Made by a program: the position numbers and the translations under genes. Below are positions 12,968 through 57,399 of a DNA stretch of 64,000 nucleotides, piece by piece; within the stretch, counting starts at the first letter, position 1; each line of letters begins with the position of its first letter. Source of the DNA: Polynucleobacter sp. MG-Unter2-18 (GTDB taxonomy: Bacteria; Pseudomonadota; Gammaproteobacteria; Burkholderiales; Burkholderiaceae); contig NZ_CP061302.1 of NCBI RefSeq assembly GCF_018687675.1, positions 62,001 through 126,000 on the forward strand, given 5' to 3'. The notes under the pieces are model-generated. The model made no database searches. It saw only the letters and a list, made by a program, of their open reading frames with translations, and was not told the DNA's origin.

Positions 12968-14266
12968 TTAATCTGGCAAGGTGGTTTCACTAGTAAAGAG
13001 ATCAGCAATATTTTCACGAGCACGAATGACGTATGCATTCTTGCCATCAACCATGATCTCTGCAGGTTTTGGCCTGGTGTTGTAATTGGAAGCCATCACA
13101 AAGCCATAAGCACCAGCAGACAGAATAGCTAGCAGATCACCTTCTTCAACCGCAAGTTGACGATCTCTTCCAAGCCAGTCACCAGATTCACATACGGGTC
13201 CGACGACGTCATAAGTAGAGCTTGCAACTTGCTTAGTTTGAACTGGAACGATTCCGTGATAAGCCTCGTAGAGCGCTGGGCGCATCAACTCTGTCATTGC
13301 TGCATCCACAATACAAAAGTTTTTCTCAGCACCAGGCTTGAGATACTCAACTTGAGTCAAGAGCACGCCAGCATTACCCACTAAGGATCTACCAGGCTCT
13401 AAGACAATATCGAGATGCCCAAAGCCACGTTGAGCAACGCGATTGAGTAAGGTGTTGGTGAACTCAGTAATATCAGGCGGGTTGTCATCGCCATAAGAAA
13501 TACCAAGGCCTCCACCTAAATCCAGATGGTGGATCTCAATACCCTCTTTTTTCAATTGAGTAACTAACTCGAGCACTTTATCAAGCGCATCAAGATAGGG
13601 TGCAGTGTTGGTAATTTGTGAACCAATATGACAATCAATACCAACTACATCAATCTGTGACAGCAATGCGGCTTCACGATATGTCTTTAAAACCTCGTGA
13701 TAAGCGATACCAAATTTATTACCCTTTAATCCAGTAGAAATATAAGGATGCGTTTGTGCATCGACATCGGGATTCACGCGCAAGGAAATTGGGGCGCGGC
13801 AATTGAGCTCAGTAGCAACCCGATTAATTTGGTGGAGCTCTGCAATTGACTCTACATTGATACACTTAACGCTAGCTTTTAATGCTTGCGCAATTTCGTG
13901 AGCAGATTTACCAACACCGGCAAACACTAAACTTTTTGGATCTGCGCCAATAGCAAGAGCGCGCGCTAACTCACCGCCGCTGACTAAGTCAAAGCCAGAG
14001 CCTAATTTTTTAAAGCAATCAATCACTGCTAAGTTGCTATTCGCCTTCATCGCATAGTGAACGCGAGCTCGTCTTTTGCCAGAGGAATCTACGCAAGCTT
14101 TGTCATAGGCCTGATAAGCTTCGGTCAATGCTTTTTTACTATAGACATACAGGGGTGTGCCAAATTCCTTTGCCAAATCTAGCAACGGAATTTCCTCTGC
14201 ATACCAAGTACCATTTCGTTCTGTAAATCCAGCTAAGTCGGGGAGTGGGATCGCTTTACTTGTCAT
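12968..14266 (-). CDS. lysA: Diaminopimelate decarboxylase
   Basis: The 432-residue product is a fold-type III PLP enzyme. The PLP lysine is in VHYAMKANSN, the glycine loop is DLGGGLGISYG, HIGSQI is a phosphate-site element, and CESGD near the C-terminus contributes the catalytic cysteine. It makes L-lysine from meso-diaminopimelate. Its ATG overlaps the end of lptM by 4 bases, so the two are translated together. Confidence 0.96.
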   Translation of the reverse strand: MTSKAIPLPDLAGFTERNGTWYAEEIPLLDLAKEFGTPLYVYSKKALTEAYQAYDKACVDSSGKRRARVHYAMKANSNLAVIDCFKKLGSGFDLVSGGELARALAIGADPKSLVFAGVGKSAHEIAQALKASVKCINVESIAELHQINRVATELNCRAPISLRVNPDVDAQTHPYISTGLKGNKFGIAYHEVLKTYREAALLSQIDVVGIDCHIGSQITNTAPYLDALDKVLELVTQLKKEGIEIHHLDLGGGLGISYGDDNPPDITEFTNTLLNRVAQRGFGHLDIVLEPGRSLVGNAGVLLTQVEYLKPGAEKNFCIVDAAMTELMRPALYEAYHGIVPVQTKQVASSTYDVVGPVCESGDWLGRDRQLAVEEGDLLAILSAGAYGFVMASNYNTRPKPAEIMVDGKNAYVIRARENIADLFTSETTLPD

Positions 14267-14454
14267 TGCTTGGCCGATGTGGAGTTAGGAGCTGTAGGGC
14301 TTTGGGGTGGATAGAGCTTGCCTTTAGGCTCTGGCTCAGCAGGAGGACTAGGTGCTGGCGGCACATTTGGCAAATATAAGGGACCTCTAACCCCACATCC
14401 AACAAGGGATATTAGAAGGCCAATACCAAGAGTTCTTTTAAGAATCGCTATCAT
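14263..14454 (-). CDS. lptM: LPS-translocon maturation chaperone LptM-like lipoprotein
   Basis: The 63-residue product has a lipoprotein signal ending LVGC, followed by GVRGPLYLP, the conserved LptM (YifL) motif, then a proline-rich tail. LptM is an outer-membrane lipoprotein that aids disulfide maturation of LptD in E. coli. In betaproteobacteria it commonly precedes lysA, as here with a 4-base overlap. Function is inferred from the motif and position. Confidence 0.85.
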   Translation of the reverse strand: MIAILKRTLGIGLLISLVGCGVRGPLYLPNVPPAPSPPAEPEPKGKLYPPQSPTAPNSTSAKQ

Positions 14455-14501
14455 GAATGTCTCTAAAACGAATGATTGAATATAGCATGCAGGACTCTAA
14501 T

Positions 14502-14885
14502 ATGAAGCCAGGCAATTTAACTGTAGAAACGATTGACGATAAGCAATTTTATCAATTGGGTAGTAATTTATTGGAGTCGATAGAGGTAGCCCTAGAAGCC
14601 GCAGACGATGCACTAGACCTCGATCTGGATGTGGAGCGCCAAGGTGGAAACGTCATCAACATTCGGTTTAGAGATCGCAGTGTGATTGTGGTCAACACCC
14701 AGCCCCCTCTACACGAGATTTGGGTAGCGGCTAAATCGGGCGGCTATCACTATCGTTGGGCGGGTACCTTATCTTCTCCGATGTGGTTGGATACTAAAAC
14801 TGGACGCGAATTGCTGGGCGACCTATCCGAATTTGCCAGTGCTCAAGCTGGTCAGATGATCACTATTGGCCTACTTCAGAAATAA
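14502..14885 (+). CDS. cyaY: Frataxin-like iron-sulfur protein CyaY
   Basis: The product matches frataxin/CyaY: a helix rich in acidic residues (SIEVALEAADDALDLDLDV), then the beta-sheet with NTQPPLHEIWVAAKSGGYHY. It binds iron and modulates cluster assembly by IscS. The frame has in-frame ATGs at 14457, 14472, 14487 and 14502. The last is chosen because AGGA lies 7 bases before it and it gives 127 residues, nearest the family length of about 110. The gene is divergent from lptM. Confidence 0.9.
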   Translation: MKPGNLTVETIDDKQFYQLGSNLLESIEVALEAADDALDLDLDVERQGGNVINIRFRDRSVIVVNTQPPLHEIWVAAKSGGYHYRWAGTLSSPMWLDTKTGRELLGDLSEFASAQAGQMITIGLLQK

Positions 14886-46929: not shown

Positions 46930-47697
46930 ATGAAAACTATACCGGTAATAATCCCCTATTTTTGTGCAGAAGAAGAGTTGCAAAAATGCCTATCTGCGCT
47001 TGAGGATCAATCTTATAAACCGATTGATATTTTTGTAAGAGATAACAGCATCGATAATATTTTATTTATTGCTGCAATAAACGAAGGGCTACAAAAGTAC
47101 AGTTCAAATAAAGATATTGATTACATACTCATTTTGAATCAAGACGCTTATGTACAAAAAGAAACTATCAGATTCTTAGTCAAGAGTATGGAGGCGGATG
47201 AAAATTGTGGGATCGCATGTCCAATACAAATATCGAGTAAGGACAACTCCATATATTGGGGAGGGGGTTTTGAAGCATTTCCATTTGGAAGGCATCAAGG
47301 CGGGTCTTTGAGTGAGTACAGCAAGGACTTTGATACTTATTGGGCAAATGGAGCTTGTATGCTTTTAAGGGTGAAAATGATAAGAGAGATTGGTTTTTTT
47401 GATAAAAATATGAAGTTTATTTGTTCAGATTCTGATTACTCTTATACGGCTAGGTCACGAGGATGGAAGGTAAAGGTTGCTCACCAAGCACATGTTTATC
47501 ATTCAGCTGGTGCATGTGGTTCGGTTGAAAATAGTTTTATTAATACAATTAAAAATCAAGATGCAATATATTTTGCAAAAAAATGGTTAAATGGCGATCT
47601 TTACAAGAGCCTTTCGTATGATGGTGAAAAACTAACACGTATGAAGATTCAGACCTTGATTCAAAACTTGGAGTCAGCAGCTCGAAATAACGTGTAG
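46930..47697 (+). CDS. Family 2 glycosyltransferase (rhamnosyltransferase-like)
   Basis: The 255-residue product begins IPVIIPYFCAEEELQKCLSA, a GT-A nucleotide-binding strand, with VRDNSIDN and ILNQDAYV in place of the usual DxD, and YWANGACMLLRV plus the ICSDSDYSYTARSRGW acceptor-side segment, as in WbbL-like rhamnosyltransferases. It probably adds a sugar to a surface glycan or glycoprotein. No clear ribosome-binding site is seen. It opens the AT-rich island. Confidence 0.82.
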   Translation: MKTIPVIIPYFCAEEELQKCLSALEDQSYKPIDIFVRDNSIDNILFIAAINEGLQKYSSNKDIDYILILNQDAYVQKETIRFLVKSMEADENCGIACPIQISSKDNSIYWGGGFEAFPFGRHQGGSLSEYSKDFDTYWANGACMLLRVKMIREIGFFDKNMKFICSDSDYSYTARSRGWKVKVAHQAHVYHSAGACGSVENSFINTIKNQDAIYFAKKWLNGDLYKSLSYDGEKLTRMKIQTLIQNLESAARNNV

Positions 47698-47769
47698 ATC
47701 ACACATCAACCATCTCGAAGATTTAGTTGATTTTTTTGACCATATCGTAAGTGTCACAAGAGTTATTTT

Positions 47770-47871
47770 TTAGGTTCTAAGAGTTATCTTCAACATGCCT
47801 TTATCAACAGCTTTGACCATATCGTAGATTGTGAGGAGAGCGACTTGGACTGCGGTGAGAAGCCCAGCAAA
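47770..47871 (-). pseudogene. moaC 3'-end remnant, copy A
   Basis: Read on the minus strand this gives LLTAVQVALLTIYDMVKAVD followed by KGM and then an unrelated tail to a stop. It matches the helix of cyclic pyranopterin monophosphate synthase MoaC (consensus LTAVSVAALTIYDMCKAVD). The rest of moaC is absent, so it is a fragment. Confidence 0.72.
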
Positions 47872-48049
47872 AACAAAGAACTAAGAGTAATCAATAAACA
47901 ATAAGAGCTAAATTCTGTAAGTTGATTAATGGTTAGTGGGACTAAATTGGGCTACGAAAAAGGATGGTACAAGAGTCGTGTAAGATGAATCTACCAGCTA
48001 TTAGCTAAGCGCAAATCGATATTTATTGTGGCTCAGTAGGACTCATTTC

Positions 48050-48180
48050 ATTCACACACTAGATAAAAGAGGGGTAGCCTTTCGCGACTTTCTAGAAACC
48101 GACTTCTGCCACACCCCCATAGCCCATTTTTGAAAAGGGCCCCACCCAGATAGCCCCTCCACCTTATTTTGCTCAAATAA
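48050..48180. repeat. Intergenic block shared with 50530-50660, copy 1
   Basis: About 130 bases directly upstream of the first GT41 gene resemble the block before the second, including ACACCCCCATAGC, TTTTTGAAAAGGG and CACCTTATTTTGCTCAAAT. The minus strand of both can be read as PFSK..YGGV..xGF, here broken by a stop, so it may be a decayed gene end. Confidence 0.65.
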
Positions 48181-48212
48181 TTCTAATTTTTTCTGTTCAT
48201 TACCTCGTCTTA

Positions 48213-48237
48213 AAAATAAGTGCTGAAGCTGTAAAAT
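48213..48237 (+). promoter_or_regulatory. Shared -10-like block of TPR gene 1
   Basis: This 25-base block (AAAATAAGTGCTG...TAAAAT) is 22/25 identical to that before the third TPR gene. TAAAAT ends 7 bases before the ATG and no ribosome-binding site is present, which suggests a leaderless message. Confidence 0.5.
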
Positions 48238-48244
48238 ACACAAA

Positions 48245-50227
48245 ATGAATCCTCAACTTCAAATAATGCTTCAGCAAGCTTTTGAATATATGCAACAGGC
48301 AAAATTTAGCCAAGCCAAGCCAATCCTTGCTTATGTCCTAAAGATGCAACCAAAGAATTTTGACGTCTTGCACGCACTAGGATTTATTTCTGGAACTGAA
48401 AATAATCATCAAGAAGCAGTTTATTACTCATTAAAAGCGTTAAAAATTAAGCCTGACGATTTAGAAGTGAATATTAATTGCGCAAGAGCATTGCAAGAGA
48501 TTGGAAAGCATCTAGATTCAGTAAGGAGTCACCAAAAAGCAATTTTTTTATCCCCGAATAACCATGAGATTTGGCTTGGTTGTGGGAAGTCACTTCAAAG
48601 CCTTAAGCGTTATGACGAGGCTATTGCTCACTACGATAAAGCGCTAAGCCTGAAACCTGATTTTGCCGCAGCTTGGTCTAACAAAGGAAATATTTTCTAT
48701 GAACTCAAGCGTTATGACGAGGCTATCGCTCATTACGATAAAGCCTTAAATTTAAATCCTGATTTTGCTGCAGCTTGGTTTAACAAGGGAAATACTTTGC
48801 ATGAACTCAAGCGTTATGACGGGGCTATTGCTTACTATGATAAGGCTCTCAGCATCAAGCCCGATATTGATTGGATATTTGGTAGCTTACTACACTCTAA
48901 GATGAATATATGTAGTTGGTCAGGTTTGGCAGAATCTTTGGAGAATATTTCCAAAAAATTAGTGGTGAATGAGAAAGTTGTTAATCCTTTTTCGTTGCTA
49001 GCGTTAAATGATGATGCTCTGCTTCATAAAAAATCTGCTGAAATTTATATTCAATCAAGATATCCATCTAACCCTGTTTTAGAACCTATTCTTAAGCGTC
49101 CACAGAATCAAAAAATCCGAGTGGGTTACTTCTCGACTGATTTTAAAAACCATCCCGTTGCCTTTCTTATTGCCGAGCTTTTTGAGTTGCATGATAAAAG
49201 TCAATTTGAATTAGTCGGCTTTTCATTTGGCCCAATAACAAAAGACCAGATGCGCCAACGCCTAGAAAAGTCATTTGACCAGTTTGTTGAGGTTGGTAAT
49301 AAGTCGGATATTGAAATCGCCCAATTAAGTAGATGCTTAAATATTGACATTGCAGTTGATTTAACAGGCTTTACCCAAGACGCAAGAACGGGAATATTTT
49401 CTCATCGTGCCGCACCCATTCAAGTCAATTATCTTGGCTACCCTGGAACTATGGGTGCTGATTACATGGATTACATCATTGCCGATAGAACTCTTATTCC
49501 ACTGGAGTCTCAGTCATGCTATTCAGAGAAGGTAGTCTATTTACCCAATAGCTATCAGGTCAATGATAGAAAGCGTCTAATTTCAGATAGGCAATTTACA
49601 AGGCAAGATCTAGACCTTCCAGAAAAAGGATTTGTATTTTGTTGTTTTAATAACAATTACAAGATATTGCCCGCAACCTTTGCAAGTTGGATGAGAATAT
49701 TGAAAGCGGTAGAAGGTAGTATCTTATGGCTATTTCAAGATAATTCTTGGGCGGTAGAGAATCTCAAAAAAGAAGCTGAAAAACAAGGTATTGCAGCCGA
49801 TAGGCTAGTCTTTGCTGAACGTTTGCCTTTACCTGAACATTTGGCTCGCCATCGTCAGGCTGATTTATTTCTTGATACCTTCCCCTATAACGCACATACC
49901 ACCACTAGCGATGCTTTATGGGCTGGATTACCAGTTTTAACTTTAATAGGCAGGTCTTTTGCTAGTCGTGTAGCAGCGAGCCTTTTAAAAGCGATTGGTT
50001 TGCCAGAACTAATTACCAGCACTCAAGAAGAGTATGAAGCATTAGCGATTGAGCTAGCCATAAACCCCAATAAACTTAAAGATATTAAATTGAAGTTAGC
50101 CAAGAACCGTTTGACTACTCCATTGTTTGATACACCGCTCTTTACTAAAAATCTTGAAGTCGCTTACAGCGAAATGTATGAGCGTTATCAAGATGATTTG
50201 CAGCCAGATCATATAACTATTATTTAG
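48245..50227 (+). CDS. TPR protein with GT41 (O-GlcNAc transferase-like) domain, copy 1
   Basis: The 660-residue product has about six TPR units (1-214; the unit RYDEAIAHYDKALSLKPD repeats) and a C-terminal GT41/SPINDLY catalytic domain (about 290-650) with VGYFSTDFKNHPVAF (the catalytic-base-like histidine), IQVNYLGYPGTMG, CCFNNNYKILP (conserved lysine) and PYNAHTTTSDALWAGLPVLT. Such enzymes add sugars to Ser/Thr or Asn of proteins, with TPRs choosing the substrate. No signal peptide, so cytoplasmic. Residues 215-660 are identical to the C-terminus of the next gene, encoded by an apparently perfect DNA repeat. Confidence 0.9.
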   Translation: MNPQLQIMLQQAFEYMQQAKFSQAKPILAYVLKMQPKNFDVLHALGFISGTENNHQEAVYYSLKALKIKPDDLEVNINCARALQEIGKHLDSVRSHQKAIFLSPNNHEIWLGCGKSLQSLKRYDEAIAHYDKALSLKPDFAAAWSNKGNIFYELKRYDEAIAHYDKALNLNPDFAAAWFNKGNTLHELKRYDGAIAYYDKALSIKPDIDWIFGSLLHSKMNICSWSGLAESLENISKKLVVNEKVVNPFSLLALNDDALLHKKSAEIYIQSRYPSNPVLEPILKRPQNQKIRVGYFSTDFKNHPVAFLIAELFELHDKSQFELVGFSFGPITKDQMRQRLEKSFDQFVEVGNKSDIEIAQLSRCLNIDIAVDLTGFTQDARTGIFSHRAAPIQVNYLGYPGTMGADYMDYIIADRTLIPLESQSCYSEKVVYLPNSYQVNDRKRLISDRQFTRQDLDLPEKGFVFCCFNNNYKILPATFASWMRILKAVEGSILWLFQDNSWAVENLKKEAEKQGIAADRLVFAERLPLPEHLARHRQADLFLDTFPYNAHTTTSDALWAGLPVLTLIGRSFASRVAASLLKAIGLPELITSTQEEYEALAIELAINPNKLKDIKLKLAKNRLTTPLFDTPLFTKNLEVAYSEMYERYQDDLQPDHITII

Positions 50228-50513
50228 GTAGTGTTTTTAATATCTTAAGAGCCAATTGATCTGGGTCTGAAAGGTCTAACTGCCTATACCCCGAAAGGCG
50301 TCGGCATTGAGTCTTGCTAGTGCCCATTACTTCTTTTACATAGTATTAGCACGTTTTCTGTCCCCTCAGTGGAACAGAATTGGGCCCCAGCTTATTTCAT
50401 ATTCTTAATTTTGCTTTACAGGTTAATCTTTGCTAACCCGCTCTCCATTCCCCACTCTCGGCACCACTCTTCTCAAGTACATGGACATTACCCATAAGCA
50501 TGCCTCTATCAAC
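48887..50513 (+). repeat. 1,627-bp direct repeat, copy 1
   Basis: This segment covers codons 215-660 of the first GT41 gene and 286 bases beyond its stop, and recurs 2,687 bases downstream (51574-53200) with no mismatch seen by eye. The edges are sharp: C versus T just before it and G versus A just after. Confidence 0.93.
50356..50379. repeat. Small palindrome with CTGTCCC motif, copy 1
   Basis: TTCTGTCCC and GGAACAGAA (8 of 9 positions paired) flank CTCAGT. The CTGTCCC core also occurs in the palindrome beside the Y1 transposase at 21.6 kb. Confidence 0.5.
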
Positions 50514-50525
50514 GGGTTTGTCCAT
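50433..50525 (-). pseudogene. moaC 3'-end remnant, copy B
   Basis: The minus strand reads MDKPVDRGMLMGNVHVLEKS followed by GAESGEWRAG and a stop, resembling the MoaC C-terminus (KAVDKGM, then a V-LLEKSGGKSG tail). The 3' part, from the stop at 50433 to 50513, lies within the long repeat; upstream coding sequence is missing. Confidence 0.7.
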
Positions 50526-50529
50526 CCGC

Positions 50530-50660
50530 ATGCTGGATAAAACGGGGCACCCCTTTGTGATTTTCAAGAAACCGATTCCTTCTACACCCCCATAGCTCGT
50601 TTTTGAAAAGGGTCTCATCCAGCCAACTCTTTCACCTTATTTTGCTCAAATGAACAAGTA
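50530..50660. repeat. Intergenic block shared with 48050-48180, copy 2
   Basis: This is the counterpart of the block before the first GT41 gene. Here the minus-strand reading PFSKTSYGGVEGIGFLKITK is open. It may be the less decayed copy of a gene end; the family was not recognised. Confidence 0.6.
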
Positions 50661-50696
50661 TTTTTTAAAGAAATGTTGATTTTTGGCTCTATCTTA

Positions 50697-50721
50697 GGAA
50701 TAAGTAGGGAACCTATAAAAT
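50697..50721 (+). promoter_or_regulatory. Shared -10-like block of TPR gene 2
   Basis: The 25-base block ends in TATAAAAT 6 bases before the ATG and matches 17 of 25 positions of the block before the third TPR gene. No ribosome-binding site follows it. Confidence 0.5.
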
Positions 50722-50727
50722 GGCCTT

Positions 50728-52914
50728 ATGAATCCCAAACTTCAAGCAGCTCTTCAGAAAGCCATCCAAGCCTTTCAGAGCCAAAATTTTGATGGCGCTG
50801 ATTTAATCCTCAAGGAAGTTCTTCAAAGCGATATCAATAGTGCCGATGCTGTTTTTGAGTTGGGCATTGCTTATGCAAAAGCCAATAGATTTATGGAGGC
50901 ATCAGCTGTCTTTTGCTGCTTGCAGCCCTATAAAAAAAATGATGTAAGAATTCCTTATAACTTGGGCCTTATTCATTCGTTACTGGGCAGGCATCAACTT
51001 GCATTAGCAGCTTATGATTTAGCTCTCAAAATTCAGTCTGATGATGCCGAGATACTTATTAATAAAGGCTCAACTTGTAACGATATTAAGGATTATGTTT
51101 TGGCGCTAGAGGTCCTAGAAAAGGCAACCCAAATAAATCCTGATATCGCTGAAGGTTGGTCTAATAAAGGCATTGCATTCAATAATCTAAATTTGTATCA
51201 GGAGTCTATCAACGCCTATAACAAGGCCATTAAGCTAAAACCAAGCTATTACGAGGCATGGTCAAATAAAAGTGCACCACTGAACAAATTAAAACGCTTC
51301 GAAGAGGCCTCTGAAGCATGCGATAAAGCATTAAGTATCAAGCCTGACTATGCGGAAGCTTACTATAACAAAGGCAATGTATTAAATGAGCTAAAACGGT
51401 ATGACGAGGCCATTGCTCACTACGATAAGGCTCTCAGCCTTAAGCCTGACTATCATGAGGCGTGGTCCAACAAAGGTAATGTATTAAATGAGCTAAAACA
51501 GTATGAAGAGGCTATTGCTTACTATGATAAGGCTCTCAGCATCAAGCCTGATATTAATTGGGTGTATGGAGATTTACTACACTCTAAGATGAATATATGT
51601 AGTTGGTCAGGTTTGGCAGAATCTTTGGAGAATATTTCCAAAAAATTAGTGGTGAATGAGAAAGTTGTTAATCCTTTTTCGTTGCTAGCGTTAAATGATG
51701 ATGCTCTGCTTCATAAAAAATCTGCTGAAATTTATATTCAATCAAGATATCCATCTAACCCTGTTTTAGAACCTATTCTTAAGCGTCCACAGAATCAAAA
51801 AATCCGAGTGGGTTACTTCTCGACTGATTTTAAAAACCATCCCGTTGCCTTTCTTATTGCCGAGCTTTTTGAGTTGCATGATAAAAGTCAATTTGAATTA
51901 GTCGGCTTTTCATTTGGCCCAATAACAAAAGACCAGATGCGCCAACGCCTAGAAAAGTCATTTGACCAGTTTGTTGAGGTTGGTAATAAGTCGGATATTG
52001 AAATCGCCCAATTAAGTAGATGCTTAAATATTGACATTGCAGTTGATTTAACAGGCTTTACCCAAGACGCAAGAACGGGAATATTTTCTCATCGTGCCGC
52101 ACCCATTCAAGTCAATTATCTTGGCTACCCTGGAACTATGGGTGCTGATTACATGGATTACATCATTGCCGATAGAACTCTTATTCCACTGGAGTCTCAG
52201 TCATGCTATTCAGAGAAGGTAGTCTATTTACCCAATAGCTATCAGGTCAATGATAGAAAGCGTCTAATTTCAGATAGGCAATTTACAAGGCAAGATCTAG
52301 ACCTTCCAGAAAAAGGATTTGTATTTTGTTGTTTTAATAACAATTACAAGATATTGCCCGCAACCTTTGCAAGTTGGATGAGAATATTGAAAGCGGTAGA
52401 AGGTAGTATCTTATGGCTATTTCAAGATAATTCTTGGGCGGTAGAGAATCTCAAAAAAGAAGCTGAAAAACAAGGTATTGCAGCCGATAGGCTAGTCTTT
52501 GCTGAACGTTTGCCTTTACCTGAACATTTGGCTCGCCATCGTCAGGCTGATTTATTTCTTGATACCTTCCCCTATAACGCACATACCACCACTAGCGATG
52601 CTTTATGGGCTGGATTACCAGTTTTAACTTTAATAGGCAGGTCTTTTGCTAGTCGTGTAGCAGCGAGCCTTTTAAAAGCGATTGGTTTGCCAGAACTAAT
52701 TACCAGCACTCAAGAAGAGTATGAAGCATTAGCGATTGAGCTAGCCATAAACCCCAATAAACTTAAAGATATTAAATTGAAGTTAGCCAAGAACCGTTTG
52801 ACTACTCCATTGTTTGATACACCGCTCTTTACTAAAAATCTTGAAGTCGCTTACAGCGAAATGTATGAGCGTTATCAAGATGATTTGCAGCCAGATCATA
52901 TAACTATTATTTAG
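50728..52914 (+). CDS. TPR protein with GT41 (O-GlcNAc transferase-like) domain, copy 2
   Basis: The 728-residue product has about eight TPR units in residues 1-282, distinct from those of copy 1 and starting MNPKLQAALQKAIQAFQSQN, then 446 residues identical to the catalytic part of copy 1. Same GT41 motifs (DFKNHPVAF, NNNYKILP, NAHTTTSDALWAG). The switch from divergent to identical sequence falls at codon 283, just after the last TPR, with about 70 bases of partly matching sequence before it. Two enzymes with one catalytic domain and different recognition arms are implied. Confidence 0.9.
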   Translation: MNPKLQAALQKAIQAFQSQNFDGADLILKEVLQSDINSADAVFELGIAYAKANRFMEASAVFCCLQPYKKNDVRIPYNLGLIHSLLGRHQLALAAYDLALKIQSDDAEILINKGSTCNDIKDYVLALEVLEKATQINPDIAEGWSNKGIAFNNLNLYQESINAYNKAIKLKPSYYEAWSNKSAPLNKLKRFEEASEACDKALSIKPDYAEAYYNKGNVLNELKRYDEAIAHYDKALSLKPDYHEAWSNKGNVLNELKQYEEAIAYYDKALSIKPDINWVYGDLLHSKMNICSWSGLAESLENISKKLVVNEKVVNPFSLLALNDDALLHKKSAEIYIQSRYPSNPVLEPILKRPQNQKIRVGYFSTDFKNHPVAFLIAELFELHDKSQFELVGFSFGPITKDQMRQRLEKSFDQFVEVGNKSDIEIAQLSRCLNIDIAVDLTGFTQDARTGIFSHRAAPIQVNYLGYPGTMGADYMDYIIADRTLIPLESQSCYSEKVVYLPNSYQVNDRKRLISDRQFTRQDLDLPEKGFVFCCFNNNYKILPATFASWMRILKAVEGSILWLFQDNSWAVENLKKEAEKQGIAADRLVFAERLPLPEHLARHRQADLFLDTFPYNAHTTTSDALWAGLPVLTLIGRSFASRVAASLLKAIGLPELITSTQEEYEALAIELAINPNKLKDIKLKLAKNRLTTPLFDTPLFTKNLEVAYSEMYERYQDDLQPDHITII

Positions 52915-53200
52915 GTAGTGTTTTTAATATCTTAAGAGCCAATTGATCTGGGTCTGAAAGGTCTAACTGCCTATACCCCGAAAGGCGTCGGCATTGAGTC
53001 TTGCTAGTGCCCATTACTTCTTTTACATAGTATTAGCACGTTTTCTGTCCCCTCAGTGGAACAGAATTGGGCCCCAGCTTATTTCATATTCTTAATTTTG
53101 CTTTACAGGTTAATCTTTGCTAACCCGCTCTCCATTCCCCACTCTCGGCACCACTCTTCTCAAGTACATGGACATTACCCATAAGCATGCCTCTATCAAC
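51574..53200 (+). repeat. 1,627-bp direct repeat, copy 2
   Basis: Second copy of the segment at 48887-50513, same orientation. Recombination between the two would delete 2,687 bases, leaving one GT41 gene with the TPR arm of copy 1. Confidence 0.93.
53043..53066. repeat. Small palindrome with CTGTCCC motif, copy 2
   Basis: Identical to the element at 50356-50379, carried by the long repeat. Confidence 0.5.
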
Positions 53201-53270
53201 AGCCTTTGCCATATCTTGGATTGTAGGTAAGTTAAGTTTTACTACGGTACGAAGCTCGGTATAAAAAGCT
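53120..53270 (-). pseudogene. moaC 3'-end remnant, copy C
   Basis: This is the longest remnant: minus-strand reading gives ELRTVVKLNLPTIQDMAKAV followed by DRGMLMGNVHVLEKSGAESG and a stop shortly after. It aligns with the MoaC C-terminal helix and tail. It crosses the right edge of the long repeat at 53200, so the moaC fragment was probably present before duplication, with copy C nearer the original. Confidence 0.72.
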
Positions 53271-53393
53271 AAGTAAAGCCAAAACTTCGAGAATCAAGCA
53301 CCTAAACAATAAAAAGCAGGCTCAAGTTTAGGTGCAGGAATTACTTAGCTTAATGGTTGCATAAGTACAAATACGTTTACATATTCTCTAATT

Positions 53394-53401
53394 GGGGGGG
53401 G
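53394..53401. repeat. Homopolymeric G8 tract
   Basis: Eight consecutive G bases lie in an otherwise AT-rich spacer, 182 bases before the third TPR gene. Such tracts can vary in length by slippage. It is not inside a coding frame. Confidence 0.6.
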
Positions 53402-53551
53402 TATTAAAAAGTAATTAGGGTATAAGACTCGATCCCTGCGATAGCCCTGAGAACTTTTTGGAGCTAGTTCAATCTCGATCCATTCGCCTTGGCACAGTTA
53501 CTTATATTCTCCACTGGTTATTTTTAACTATTGTTACGCTAACCCTTGCTA

Positions 53552-53576
53552 AAAATAAGTGCTGTGGCTATAAAAT
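53552..53576 (+). promoter_or_regulatory. Shared -10-like block of TPR gene 3
   Basis: AAAATAAGTGCTG and TATAAAAT match the block before the first GT41 gene (22/25). TAAAAT ends 7 bases before the ATG at 53584, with no ribosome-binding site, as in the other two genes. Confidence 0.5.
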
Positions 53577-53583
53577 ATCTGTT

Positions 53584-55353
53584 ATGAATCATCAACTTCA
53601 AATATTGCTTCAACAAGCTATTCAAGCCTTTCAGAGCGGTAATTTTGATAGTGCCGACTTTATCCTTAAAAGAGTTTTACAGGTCGATTCAAAAAATCTT
53701 CCAGCGTTACATATTCTTGGTTTAATTAGAGCTTCACAATCAAAGTATAAGGAAGCAGCTAATTATTTAGCTTTAGCAGCCCGACTGAATCCGAATGATG
53801 CTTCTATACATTACAACTTAGCAAAAGCTCTTGCCGACTCAGGAAATGATAAAGATGCACTTACCCATCATAAAAAGGCAGTTGCTCTAGCCCCCAATAA
53901 TCCAGAAGCTTGGCTTAGCTACGGAAAAACAGCATCTAATTTAGGTCGCCATCATGATGCTTTGCTTTCCTATGAGAATGCTCTCAGTCTTAAACCTGAT
54001 TATGTGGAAGCTTTATTAAATAAAAGTACATCTTTAAAGGAGCTTAAGAGGTATGAAGAAGCTATAGCTTTGGCAGAGCAGGCTTTAGTAGTAGATCCTC
54101 ATTTGGCAGAGGCTTGGGCTAATAAAGGCGTTGCCTTAAATCAGCTTAAACGTTATGACGAAGCTATTACCCAATACGATCAGGCACTATCTCTTAAGCC
54201 TGACTATGTTGAGGCATGGTTGAGTAAAGGTAACGTGCTAAATCAGCTTAAACGTTATGACGAAGCTATTACCCAATACGATCAGGCACTATCTCTTAAG
54301 CCTGACTATGTTGAGGCATGGACTAATAAAGGTATTGCCTTGAAGGAGTCTAAACGATTTGAAGAAGCAATCACTCACTTTGATAAAGCATTAACTCTTA
54401 AGCCTAGCTATGCAGAAGCCTCTTGGAATAAAAGCCTTTCTTTACTGTTACAAGGAGATTTTGAAAATGGTCTTCCGCTTTATGAGAGCAGATGGGCATT
54501 GCATAAAACTAGCGAAGTTTCCAGCAAGCGTTTCTTCGATAAGCCAACCTGGCTTGGAGAAGAGTCGCTCGATGGCAAAAAAATCCTACTGCATTTTGAG
54601 CAAGGACTCGGAGATTTCATTCAGTTTTGCAGATATGTCAAACTAGTTGCAGATTTAGGCGCCAAAGTTATTTTGGAAGTGCCAAGGTCACTTGCTAGTT
54701 TAATGAAGAATTTAGAGGATATTTCAGAATTAGTCATTGAGGGCCAAGAGCTGCCATTCTTTGATTACCAATGTCCTCTATTGAGTCTTCCGCTGGCATT
54801 TAAAACTAAGCTAAATACAATTCCGAGTCCTAAGGAATATATTACTCTCAATAACCACCACGATAAAACCATTGAATGGAAAATAAAATTAGGTTCAAAG
54901 TTAAGGCCACGAGTTGGCCTAGTTTGGAGTGGGAATCCTCATCATAACAATGACCATAATCGCAGTTTATTGTTACGAGATCTTCTTCCGTTCCTACCAA
55001 ATAAATTTGAATACATAACACTGCAAAAAGAAGTTCGTGAAGTTGATAAATTAACGCTTGATATAAATCCGCATGTTCTGAGTTTTTCTAATGATTTAAA
55101 TGATTTTCTGGATACTGCAGCATTAATTGACCAGTTAGATTTAGTGATTAGCGTTGATACAAGCGTGGCGCATTTAAGTGGTGCATTGGGAAAAAAAACA
55201 TTATTGCTGTTACCTTATGTGCCAGATTGGCGATGGTTATTAGACAGGGAGGATAGTCCATGGTACCCGTCAATTAAGCTATATAGACAGCCGGCGATTG
55301 GCGACTGGAACAGCGTCTTTGATAAGGTCAAATTCGATTTGAGCTGTACTTGA
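53584..55353 (+). CDS. TPR protein with GT9-like C-terminal domain
   Basis: The start is set at 53584 (MNHQLQILLQQAIQAFQSGN), which matches the N-termini of the other three TPR genes; the frame is open to 53458. The 589-residue product has about nine TPR units (1-310) and a C-terminal domain (about 330-580) with ILLHFEQGLGDFIQFCRY, RVGLVWSGNP and DLVISVDTSVAHLSGALGKK, as in GT9 (heptosyltransferase-like) enzymes. Two neighbouring TPR units are encoded by an identical 83-base stretch. Substrate unknown; a role in protein or surface glycosylation is inferred. Confidence 0.85.
   Translation: MNHQLQILLQQAIQAFQSGNFDSADFILKRVLQVDSKNLPALHILGLIRASQSKYKEAANYLALAARLNPNDASIHYNLAKALADSGNDKDALTHHKKAVALAPNNPEAWLSYGKTASNLGRHHDALLSYENALSLKPDYVEALLNKSTSLKELKRYEEAIALAEQALVVDPHLAEAWANKGVALNQLKRYDEAITQYDQALSLKPDYVEAWLSKGNVLNQLKRYDEAITQYDQALSLKPDYVEAWTNKGIALKESKRFEEAITHFDKALTLKPSYAEASWNKSLSLLLQGDFENGLPLYESRWALHKTSEVSSKRFFDKPTWLGEESLDGKKILLHFEQGLGDFIQFCRYVKLVADLGAKVILEVPRSLASLMKNLEDISELVIEGQELPFFDYQCPLLSLPLAFKTKLNTIPSPKEYITLNNHHDKTIEWKIKLGSKLRPRVGLVWSGNPHHNNDHNRSLLLRDLLPFLPNKFEYITLQKEVREVDKLTLDINPHVLSFSNDLNDFLDTAALIDQLDLVISVDTSVAHLSGALGKKTLLLLPYVPDWRWLLDREDSPWYPSIKLYRQPAIGDWNSVFDKVKFDLSCT
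54137..54321 (+). repeat. Tandem TPR-coding repeat, 83 identical bases 102 apart
   Basis: Bases 54137-54219 recur exactly at 54239-54321, encoding QLKRYDEAITQYDQALSLKP and the next residues twice. The period of 102 bases equals one 34-residue TPR, so this is a recent single-unit duplication. Confidence 0.9.
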
Positions 55354-55809
55354 GATTTTCAGTCTGTATATCAATGATGGGCTATGCATGATTTTATTAT
55401 TTTCTTAGAAATTATTTGAGGGTTAACGAAGGGTTTGATTAGTTATAAATCGATCCACTATTTCATCTAGACATCAAGTAGAAATAAAAATCCTAAATTA
55501 GAATTAAACCTATGTATTTTTCTTACTTGAACTTATGTCCAATATGGCTTAGATGTATTTTTGATAGTTTTAATAAATCACCACGTTAATATGGTGGAGG
55601 TTTCTATTTGTAATTGTTGAATTGACTTAATTCATACTCAAGAAGAGGTTGTCTAGTCATATATAAAGCAATAACCAACATTAATTCATTGTAAAGTAGC
55701 GATATTAATTTTTACAGCTAGCAAAGATTTTTTGATACTTAGCTTATATCTAATGCGCTACAGTATCAAAAATTGAAGTGTAAAAATTGCTAAGATGAGC
55801 TATAAATAA
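55354..55809. other. 456-base AT-rich spacer between convergent TPR genes
   Basis: No gene, RNA or clear terminator was recognised. The only structure seen is a long hairpin at 55728-55773 and a weak CACCA/TGGTG pair near 55580. Confidence 0.5.
55728..55773. repeat. Long AT-rich hairpin
   Basis: TTTTTGATACTTAGC (55729-55743) pairs with GCTACAGTATCAAAAA (55757-55772) over 15 pairs with one bulged C and a 13-base loop. No T run follows the stem on either strand, so it is not a standard terminator. Confidence 0.6.
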
Positions 55810-57399
55810 TCAGGTATTGAAATTGATAAGTTCACGGCGAACGCTTTCAATGACTGACGTCCAGTCATCATGTGATGGCTGGCTAAATACTTTTGCAGTT
55901 GGGTACCAAGATTCTCTTTGCCCATCCGACCATCTCCAATCAACAGAGAACTGGGTTAAAACCCAGACTGGTTTACCCATTGCCCCAGCCATATGAGCAA
56001 CAGAGGTATCTACGGAAATTACTAAATCAAGATTTTCTATTAATGCAGCGGTGTCAGAGAAATCATTTAATTGATCATCATGGTTGAAAATTTTTGGGCC
56101 CAACCAAGAATCCGTTTCTAATTTTTCCAGCTCAGCAACAGCTTCCCCTCCCTTTTGTAAGCTATGGAACTCAAAGTTGACATCTTTAAGTACCGTAAAC
56201 ATTTTCAGGGGGATACTTTTCCGCACTGCATAATCCCAGAGTCCAGGCGTATCTGCTCTGTGCCCACTAGACCAAACTAATCCAATTCTGAATTTTTCCT
56301 TGGCGCCTAATTTATTTCTCCAGTGCTGAACTTTTTCGGTTGGCGGCAAAATATACCCAATACCTTTTGGTATTGTATTGATGGTTGTTTTTAATGCCAA
56401 AGGTAGACTGAGTAAGGGAATGTGAAAATCAAATTCTGGGGGCTGATCACCCTGTCTAATTAGCTGGTCTACGCCTTCCAGGTTGATGAAAGATGTCAAT
56501 AAAGGCTCTTGAACTTCAAAAAAAACTTTTGCACCCAAGTTGGCAATCAATTTAATGTATCTACAGAATTGAATCGTATCTCCTAGTCCTTGCTCGGACC
56601 AAATTAAGATAGTTTTTCCTTTTAGTGACTCTTGTCCAAGCCATAGGGGTTTTAAATAATGTCGATTTGAATTTTTTTGAAATTCTGTTTTCCATCTCCA
56701 CTCATAAAAAGTCCAGCCATTCTCATAGTCGCCAAGATGAAGAAGTGTAAGGGACTTGTTCCAATTTGCCGGAATATCATCTGGCTCAATAGCGATTGCT
56801 TTGTTATAACTTAGCAATGCTTCATCGAATCTTTTTAATTCATGGAGGGTAAATGCTTTATTCGCCCATGCCTGTGCAAAACTTGGATTTAGGCTCAATG
56901 CTTTGTCGTAGTGGGGTAGGGCTTCCTTAAATCTTTTTAACTCATGAAGAGTGGTTCCTATGTTGAACCAACTTTCAGCTAATTCGGGTTGTAATCCTAG
57001 AGCCCTTTCGAAACAATCGAGAGCTTGTGCATGGGATTTTAAGTTTGATAAGCTTTTACCGAAATTCAGCCAAGCAGATGGGTTGTTAGGAGTTAAGTCG
57101 ACTGCTTTTTTATGGTGGGTAATGGACTGCTTATGGCACCCACCATCAGCAAGAGATTTGGCTAGGTTGTATTGAATAGATGCGTCATTGGGATTAATTC
57201 GGGCGGCTTTACCTAGCAACTCAGCCGCTTCCTGATATTTTTGTGCTGATGCTCTGATAAGTCCCAAAATACTCAAGGCTGCCAGGTTTTTTGAGTCAAC
57301 CCTCAATATCCCCTTAAGAATTGAGTCGGCAACACGATGATCGCCTCTTTGAAAGGCCTGCAAAGCTTGTTGAAGCATTAATTGAAGCTGGGGGTTCAT
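55810..57399 (-). CDS. TPR protein with GT9-like C-terminal domain, next to mscL
   Basis: The 529-residue product has about six TPR units (1-235, starting MNPQLQLMLQQALQAFQRGD) and a GT9-like domain with ILIWSEQGLGDTIQFCRYIK, RIGLVWSSGH and NLDLVISVDTSVAHMAGAMG. It is a clear paralogue of the plus-strand gene at 53.6 kb but more divergent. It begins 4 bases after the mscL stop without a visible ribosome-binding site, so it probably depends on mscL transcription and translation. Confidence 0.85.
   Translation of the reverse strand: MNPQLQLMLQQALQAFQRGDHRVADSILKGILRVDSKNLAALSILGLIRASAQKYQEAAELLGKAARINPNDASIQYNLAKSLADGGCHKQSITHHKKAVDLTPNNPSAWLNFGKSLSNLKSHAQALDCFERALGLQPELAESWFNIGTTLHELKRFKEALPHYDKALSLNPSFAQAWANKAFTLHELKRFDEALLSYNKAIAIEPDDIPANWNKSLTLLHLGDYENGWTFYEWRWKTEFQKNSNRHYLKPLWLGQESLKGKTILIWSEQGLGDTIQFCRYIKLIANLGAKVFFEVQEPLLTSFINLEGVDQLIRQGDQPPEFDFHIPLLSLPLALKTTINTIPKGIGYILPPTEKVQHWRNKLGAKEKFRIGLVWSSGHRADTPGLWDYAVRKSIPLKMFTVLKDVNFEFHSLQKGGEAVAELEKLETDSWLGPKIFNHDDQLNDFSDTAALIENLDLVISVDTSVAHMAGAMGKPVWVLTQFSVDWRWSDGQRESWYPTAKVFSQPSHDDWTSVIESVRRELINFNT

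Follow-up and report, generated by a model that had tools for sequence, protein, structure and literature searches.

Two OGT-type genes share an exact catalytic cassette

This study concerns two neighbouring genes, OGT1 and OGT2, in a 64,000-nucleotide stretch of DNA (the window; bases 62001-126000) from a single-contig Polynucleobacter genome of 2,009,228 bases. They belong to an array between a porin gene (45633) and mscL (57404), which comprises a GT2 gene, the two OGT genes and the genes of two tetratricopeptide repeat (TPR) proteins with GT9-like catalytic parts (Table 1). Each OGT gene joins a TPR arm to a catalytic part, here called the head, and is bracketed by leftover pieces of the moaC 3' end. 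The G+C content amounts to 38.5% over positions 46930-57399, compared with 45.5% in the remaining window.

Table 1. Features of the porin-mscL array (att, attachment site; ORF, open reading frame; aa, amino acids).
Feature	Position	Strand	Description
GT2-type glycosyltransferase gene	46930..47697	+	first in the array after the porin gene; ORF with Glycos_transf_2 match
att scar 1	47791..47887	-	moaC 3'-tail remnant (47791-47859) and element end (47860-47887)
Upstream module of OGT1	48059..48178	+	79% identical to 50533-50651
OGT1	48245..50227	+	660 aa; TPR arm (codons 1-214) and GT41 head (codons 215-660)
OGT1 TPR arm	48245..48886	+	nearest arm relatives on GT9-like heads: G084 (74%), G082 (71%)
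Cassette copy 1	48887..50513	+	GT41 head, spacer 3' of it and 3' portion of a moaC tail; same as copy 2
att scar 2	50439..50525	-	moaC-like up to the putative crossover core CCAT (+ strand, 50522-50525)
Upstream module of OGT2	50533..50651	+	counterpart of 48059-48178
OGT2	50728..52914	+	728 aa; TPR arm (codons 1-282) and GT41 head (codons 283-728)
Cassette copy 2	51574..53200	+	identical to copy 1 (exact comparison)
att scar 3	53126..53257	-	longest moaC tail of the window (codons 114-157), then degenerate element end
TPR protein, GT9-like head	53581..55353	+	head 79% identical to the head on the OGT1-like arm in G084
Second TPR protein, GT9-like head	55810..57399	-	last gene before mscL; ORF and Pfam match

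Judged by their sequences, both genes are of the GT41 (OGT) type, with a TPR arm joined to the catalytic part. The Glyco_transf_41 catalytic domain (PF13844) was detected in both products (E 8.5e-91 and 1.2e-90), TPR families of Pfam matched both as well, and no NCBIfam model scored above its cut-off for either of them. Among PDB sequences, the head matched OGTs, including those of Drosophila (5a01; E 1.9e-84), human and Xanthomonas (XcOGT, 2jlb). The motifs NHP, FN..YKI and NAHTT form part of the active site of OGTs. NHP is kept in both proteins, NAHTT aligns with NGHTT, and the lysine of FN..YKI is kept against human OGT (5npr), with YMI in the alignment to Drosophila 5a01. An AlphaFold model, generated for OGT1 only (mean pLDDT 90.4, pTM 0.86), has OGTs as its best fold matches and predicts TPR helices up to residue 204, a helix spanning residues 211-221 and then the catalytic part.

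The initial annotation had described a perfect 1,627-bp match with sharp edges between the two genes, and exact alignment of both segments bears this out: all 1,627 of 1,627 positions are identical, with zero mismatches, and the match cannot be extended at either end. ORF coordinates likewise confirm the reported content of this cassette (446 codons and, beyond the stop codon, 286 non-coding bases) and the different lengths of the preceding arms (214 codons in OGT1, 282 in OGT2), whose difference of 68 codons corresponds to a pair of TPR units of 34 residues. The copies are spaced 2,687 bp apart, in arithmetical agreement with the length that, according to the initial annotation, recombination between them would delete. 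In register on the 5' side, 41 of the last 50 bp, 36 of the preceding 50 and 132 of the preceding 200 match, with 202/282 matches over the 282 bp before the cassette; on the 3' side, only 15 of 50 positions agree. A tract of identity thus ends sharply inside otherwise diverged copies, as would be expected from gene conversion between paralogues. Its 5' edge, at codon 215 of OGT1, falls inside the helix that joins the TPR arm to the catalytic domain, so that the boundary between shared and unshared sequence coincides with that between arm and enzyme.

In a protein search of the whole genome, OGT1 and OGT2 were the only genes with GT41 heads. Chance can be excluded as the source of their identity, because only four distinct pairs reach 99.9% DNA identity when GT41 heads from 132 loci are compared (70 pairs). 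Selection on the protein alone is ruled out as well, since the 286 non-coding bases were copied just as exactly, and a plain tandem duplication of the whole unit is incompatible with the differing arms and upstream modules. The exact identity therefore supports the earlier proposal that one catalytic domain was recently copied between the two genes.

OGT1 is probably a chimera that received its head from OGT2

The best explanation of these data, and one we consider probable, is that OGT1 is a chimera, in which a copy of the OGT2 head was joined by recombination within the genome to an older, unlike arm. The relatives of the arms, searched for in 186 genomes of the genus, suggest the direction of transfer. 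The OGT2 arm was matched in 16/186 genomes at E<=1e-40. Its nearest relative, a gene at the moaC-pilA locus of genome G073 (81% amino acid identity), also has a GT41 head (82%), and the two genes are equally diverged in both parts, with nucleotide identities of 80.7% (arm) and 82.2% (head) and dN/dS ratios of about 0.16 and 0.14, respectively. Moreover, the 3' spacer of the cassette resembles the GT41-moaC spacers of G115 and G092 (71-73% across 291 and 201 bp) and that of G073 across the 115 bp adjoining moaC. The uniform divergence and the similarity of the spacers point to OGT2 as the colinear, older combination.

The OGT1 arm has different affinities. It shares 65% nucleotide identity with the same G073 gene, and although 61/186 genomes were matched at E<=1e-20, in some cases with only about 21 candidates scored, the close relatives recovered are those in G084 (74%) and G082 (71%), with the next one at 46%. 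In G084, the OGT1-like arm carries a GT9-like head that is 79% identical to that of the gene following OGT2 in the window; in G082, the head is GT9-like by 28% BLAST identity only, with no match to a Pfam glycosyltransferase family, Glyco_transf_9 included. The colinearity of OGT2 with the G073 gene and the GT9-like heads borne by the kin of the OGT1 arm suggest OGT2 as the donor and OGT1 as the recipient of the head. It had originally been proposed that the arms diversified while gene conversion kept the head constant. This is not supported, given that the arms are only 29% identical and have different relatives; the best reading of the sequences is that they were unlike before the copying and did not diversify after it.

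Head copies recur and arms are weakly coupled to heads

GT41 matches were found in 138/186 genomes of the genus. The four pairs with at least 99.9% identity come from this window, G073, G017 (P. hallstattensis) and contig L096, and the remaining pairs on loci from genus genomes reach at most 75%; certain pairs are counted twice in this list due to overlapping loci. A further set, L153-L172, was checked for exact repeats of at least 70 bp only, and none of head length emerged. In G073, 1,368 bp are exactly shared between genes whose arms are 24% identical and whose C-terminal ends and flanks are unlike, with another gene in between. The G017 pair shares 1,569 bp with one mismatch; the first of its genes (L132:9899-12068) has an arm that is out of frame with the cassette head near the joint, reflecting either a broken gene or a sequence error. 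All three pairs, including that of the window, are located between porin and mscL genes.

L096, a contig labelled uncultured gamma proteobacterium, is only partly equivalent, because its repeat, of the tandem-duplication type, extends from a head into the beginning of the following arm, and because chimeras can occur in single-cell assemblies. Based on its name, AG-313-C04, we take it to be from a marine single-cell genome. It also contains an exact 1,084-bp repeat of a TPR arm (L096:1686-5054), one copy of which precedes a sulfotransferase head and the other a GT41 head. Another pair of tandem genes in G017 (L142:11363-12949 and 13040-14692) encodes TPR-GT9-like proteins that share 99% identity in their heads and 94% in their arms; unlike the head-only copies, it is, by its sequence, a recent whole-gene duplication.

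A wider comparison of arms and heads included 70 genes from Polynucleobacter loci, of which two duplicates were dropped; the loci had been chosen non-randomly, by head, arm or moaC-tail matches. The Spearman correlation between arm and head identity was 0.17 for the 51 GT41-type genes (1,275 pairs, p 8e-10) and 0.11 for the 17 GT9-type genes (136 pairs, p 0.21). After removal of four GT41 genes with distant or short heads, the nearest neighbours of the arm agreed with those of the N- and C-terminal halves of the head for 11 and 12 of 47 genes, respectively, and those of the two head halves with each other for 23. When both head halves were at least 65% identical, the arms shared at most 46% identity in 39/51 pairs; conversely, among pairs with arms at least 65% identical, the N-terminal head halves did so in 13/24. 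Correlations with pieces of the head ranged from -0.01 to 0.23 for the first 100 arm residues, from 0.16 to 0.45 for residues 101-150 and, in the last TPR stretch, from 0.28 to 0.67, compared with 0.27 to 0.79 within heads. Arm and head relatedness thus appear to be weakly coupled across the 47 GT41 genes.

Consistent with this notion, similar arms occur on GT41, GT9-like and methyltransferase heads. Arms with 81% identity carry a GT41 head in G115 and a GT9-like head in G167, arms with 84% identity carry a GT41 head in G060 and, in G020, a head that is 29% like a GT9-like reference, and an OGT2-type arm (77%) in G102 is linked to a methyltransferase head. Together with the head copies, these cases in other species support the previous suggestion that recognition arms and catalytic domains are shuffled relative to each other. 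The idea that arms are specific to a given locus is not supported, because the OGT2 arm class (54-81%) is present both at porin-mscL (this genome, G079 and G017) and at moaC-pilA (G073 and G115).

The 3' end of moaC as an apparent island attachment site

The moaC remnants flanking the OGT genes, which the initial annotation does not mention, lie far from intact moaC, which is found at 1.752 Mb, separated from a pilin gene by 80 bp with nothing inserted. Closely similar counterparts of the scar 1 element end occur at the moaC-pilA loci of G063 and G084. Scar 2 is moaC-like on one side of its core only; the tblastn match extends to position 50543. In a survey of 59 genomes picked from the 186, moaC was matched in 57 and extra moaC tails were present in 14. 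In 12 of the 59, intact moaC is followed at a distance of 1.4-11.3 kb by such tails in the same orientation, so that an intact target is accompanied by a displaced, directly oriented 3' fragment, as expected for an integrated island; in G017 and the present genome, whose window tails sit at another locus, extra tails are found elsewhere. A set of 31 moaC-pilin intervals, biased toward filled sites, included six empty ones (61-81 bp) and 25 holding 2.7-11.5 kb, 18 of which gave a GT41 or GT9-like match, in some cases a weak one.

A gene for a tyrosine integrase (PF00589) follows moaC in G013, G044, G084 and G125. Integrase matches at E<=1e-60 were obtained in 32/186 genomes, at 33 places; among the best 12 of these 33, 10 adjoin moaC and two adjoin a moaC tail. 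An integrase-bearing island with moaC att halves in G017 (L142:4178-10506) occupies a second site, where it splits a gene without Pfam family at an ATGG core. Resemblance to moaC is limited to the part after ATGG in one flanking tail and to the part before it in the other, and the gene is unsplit in G020, which points to ATGG as the crossover core. By eye, the split gene had been taken for a glycosyltransferase, an assignment we discarded because Pfam gave its intact relative no family. Other moaC tails begin at differing codons (about 109 to 124), which implies more than one kind of joint.

These observations identify the 3' end of moaC as the apparent attachment site of a family of tyrosine-integrase islands in the genus. 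Their connection to TPR-transferase genes is indicated by G084, where an integrase and a GT9-like gene occur together, and by G115, which combines two integrase fragments with two GT41 genes; no GT41 or GT9-like match was obtained in the integrase islands of G013, G044 and G125. A TPR gene bracketed by moaC tails is also present in G084. These data suggest that TPR-transferase genes of this type arrived on moaC islands, which left their scars in the window. As a separate feature, the moaC island of G125 (L140:5615 and 9464) contains a 566-bp exact repeat, each copy of which has the same 139-aa open frame.

Possible routes to the chimeric gene

We propose that OGT1 and OGT2 are members of a modular gene family whose products combine a TPR arm at the N-terminus with a modifying enzyme at the C-terminus. 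A copy of the OGT2 head and its 3' spacer would have been fused in frame with an arm whose closest kin carry other heads, most likely through RecA-type recombination within the genome, in the form of gene conversion or partial duplication. Both flanks offer homology for such an exchange, given the TPR stretches before and the moaC tails after the cassette in both genes: similar TPR repeats could have served as the 5' anchor and, at this locus, moaC-derived tails as the 3' anchor. The genes would lie in remains of genomic islands that target the moaC 3' end, and these remains may have moved to the porin-mscL locus.

Recombination between diverged copies may be aided by the absence of MutS (TIGR01070), for which no match was found in this genome. 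Including it, 20/25 Polynucleobacter genomes gave no match and one of the five matches was partial, compared with matches in 16/16 relatives from other genera and in 11/14 control genomes. This result agrees with an excerpted report that mutS and mutL are missing in 20 PnecC genomes, which also describes high recombination in P. asymbioticus and cites work by which diverged DNA recombines more readily when MutS is lacking (PMC5644125).

Several observations weigh against this scenario. The genomes compared include no conspecific strain that captures the state before or after the event, and the OGT1 arm has just two close relatives, one of which, in G082, owes its GT9-like label to the low BLAST identity mentioned above. 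The porin-mscL loci of G073 and G017 yielded no moaC tails, so such tails cannot be needed for head copies in general, and the 3' anchor proposed here is not a general one. In addition, the G073 copy has its 3' edge within coding sequence and without a shared flank, which fits an illegitimate joint as well as it does conversion. As the two head halves agree on their nearest neighbour in only 23/47 genes, heads also appear to recombine internally, making the contrast between arm and head one of degree. Correlations within arms are low too (0.27-0.41), as many arm identities are near saturation. Finally, with no integrase match at E<=1e-60, the genome bears only scars of the islands that would have delivered the genes.

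Among the alternatives, the strongest, albeit an unlikely one, is a tandem duplication of the entire OGT2 unit, after which incoming DNA replaced the arm and upstream region of one copy, so that the arm rather than the head would have moved. The final anatomy would be the same, similar arms do exist in different species on different heads, islands of the genus have been reported, in the excerpt at hand, to be exchanged between species (PMC5644125), and L096 provides an example of a tandem-duplication-type repeat. This route requires a second crossover within the TPR region as well as a swap of the upstream modules, which are 79% alike, and it has to account for an arm in copy 1 that is just 29% identical to that of copy 2; neither point is decisive. 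We give little credence to an assembly artefact, in which similar but non-identical heads collapsed into one consensus. A 1.6-kb repeat whose copies lie 2.7 kb apart is difficult for short reads, but the copies match perfectly as far as their sharp edges, beyond which identity falls, the genome forms one contig, and two other species, as assembled, have like pairs. Least probable of all, by a small step, is a site-specific insertion or exchange of the unit by a moaC integrase acting in trans, with the copy as a by-product of island accretion: even though both genes and a TPR gene in G084 are bracketed by moaC tails and scar 2 is moaC-like on one side of its core only, as at the G017 insertion, the identity stops 8 nt short of that core, its 5' edge lies inside the gene and away from moaC tails, and an integrase was matched neither in the window nor, at E<=1e-60, in the genome.

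Relation to known systems and functional implications

Like the GT41 proteins known from human, Drosophila (5a01) and Xanthomonas (XcOGT, 2jlb), OGT1 and OGT2 combine a TPR superhelix with a GT41 domain; unlike in these known OGTs, two linked genes share an exact catalytic cassette with unlike arms. A comparably modular protein is FlmG of Caulobacter, whose N-terminal TPR part binds flagellin and whose C-terminal glycosyltransferase part modifies it, with both parts being needed (PMC7591256, in excerpt). The portion of that report at hand describes no shuffling of parts, and the arrays studied here adjoin porin or pilin genes instead. By analogy with FlmG, the TPR arm is probably the acceptor-binding part, so that arms would choose the acceptors. 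Because the islands adjoin pilin or porin genes, pilin and porin are candidate acceptors, by position only.

With regard to the islands, the ssrA islands of Dehalococcoides are tandem and marked by repeats of the target 3' end, and 15 of them lack an integration module and were discussed in terms of possible cis-mobilizable elements and of accretion (PMC3146451, in part). The islands described here differ in their target, moaC, their tyrosine integrase and a cargo that includes TPR-transferase genes, and they are known from sequence alone. The replacement islands of Polynucleobacter are cell-surface islands exchanged by homologous recombination, according to an excerpt of their description (PMC5644125). 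The main text of that study uses neither the word 'integrase' nor the word 'glycosyl', in contrast to the present description.

Constant parts are also combined with variable recognition parts in the shuffling of type I restriction hsdS genes and in pilE/pilS gene conversion, both of which are programmed and reversible. The likeness to these systems lies in the constant/variable combination, whereas the present case is known from its sequence anatomy. Literature searches linking Polynucleobacter with moaC returned nothing, and, by their titles and the openings of their abstracts, the matches listed for GT41 conversion, TPR-glycosyltransferase shuffling, moaC integrase islands and Polynucleobacter glycosyltransferase islands contained no such report, although an earlier mention is possible. 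The parts are of known kinds, and the exchange of arms and heads with exact head copies looks new.

More tentatively, and with doubts that we regard as outweighing the case for it, these genes might constitute a combinatorial 'address plus enzyme' system, in which TPR arms are reassorted onto different heads to give surface proteins new modifications. Recombination in the TPR repeats and in the att tails of the islands would shuffle the arms among GT41, GT9-like, methyltransferase and, in the uncultured gammaproteobacterium, sulfotransferase heads, and pilin or porin could be modified anew, for instance under pressure from phages or grazers. Apart from such a system, the repeated arm/head recombination suggested by the relatives could bring cells new protein-modifying specificities and provide a route for fast change of surface protein modification in freshwater bacteria. 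If arms decide the target, the natural chimeras represent ready-made domain swaps, with the same head on another arm or a similar arm on another enzyme, and would make target choice by OGT-type enzymes directly testable. Independently of this idea, the analysis describes a family of integrase islands with moaC as its apparent target.

Further observations

The GT9 label of the non-GT41 heads is weak, with Glyco_transf_9 scores of 20.8 bits (53581-55353), 19.4 bits (G084) and 23.1 bits (55810-57399) against a Pfam cut-off of 22. At the Rfam gathering threshold, a tRNA was the sole match in the window. GT41 heads are also found in very large proteins: L064, L066, L073 and L090 (as well as L051, L056, L063 and L083), from metagenome-assembled genomes labelled Chlorobiaceae, Methylococcales and Methylococcaceae, contain single open frames of about 2,200-4,400 aa, in which three to five GT41 heads per fetched stretch are arranged like beads.

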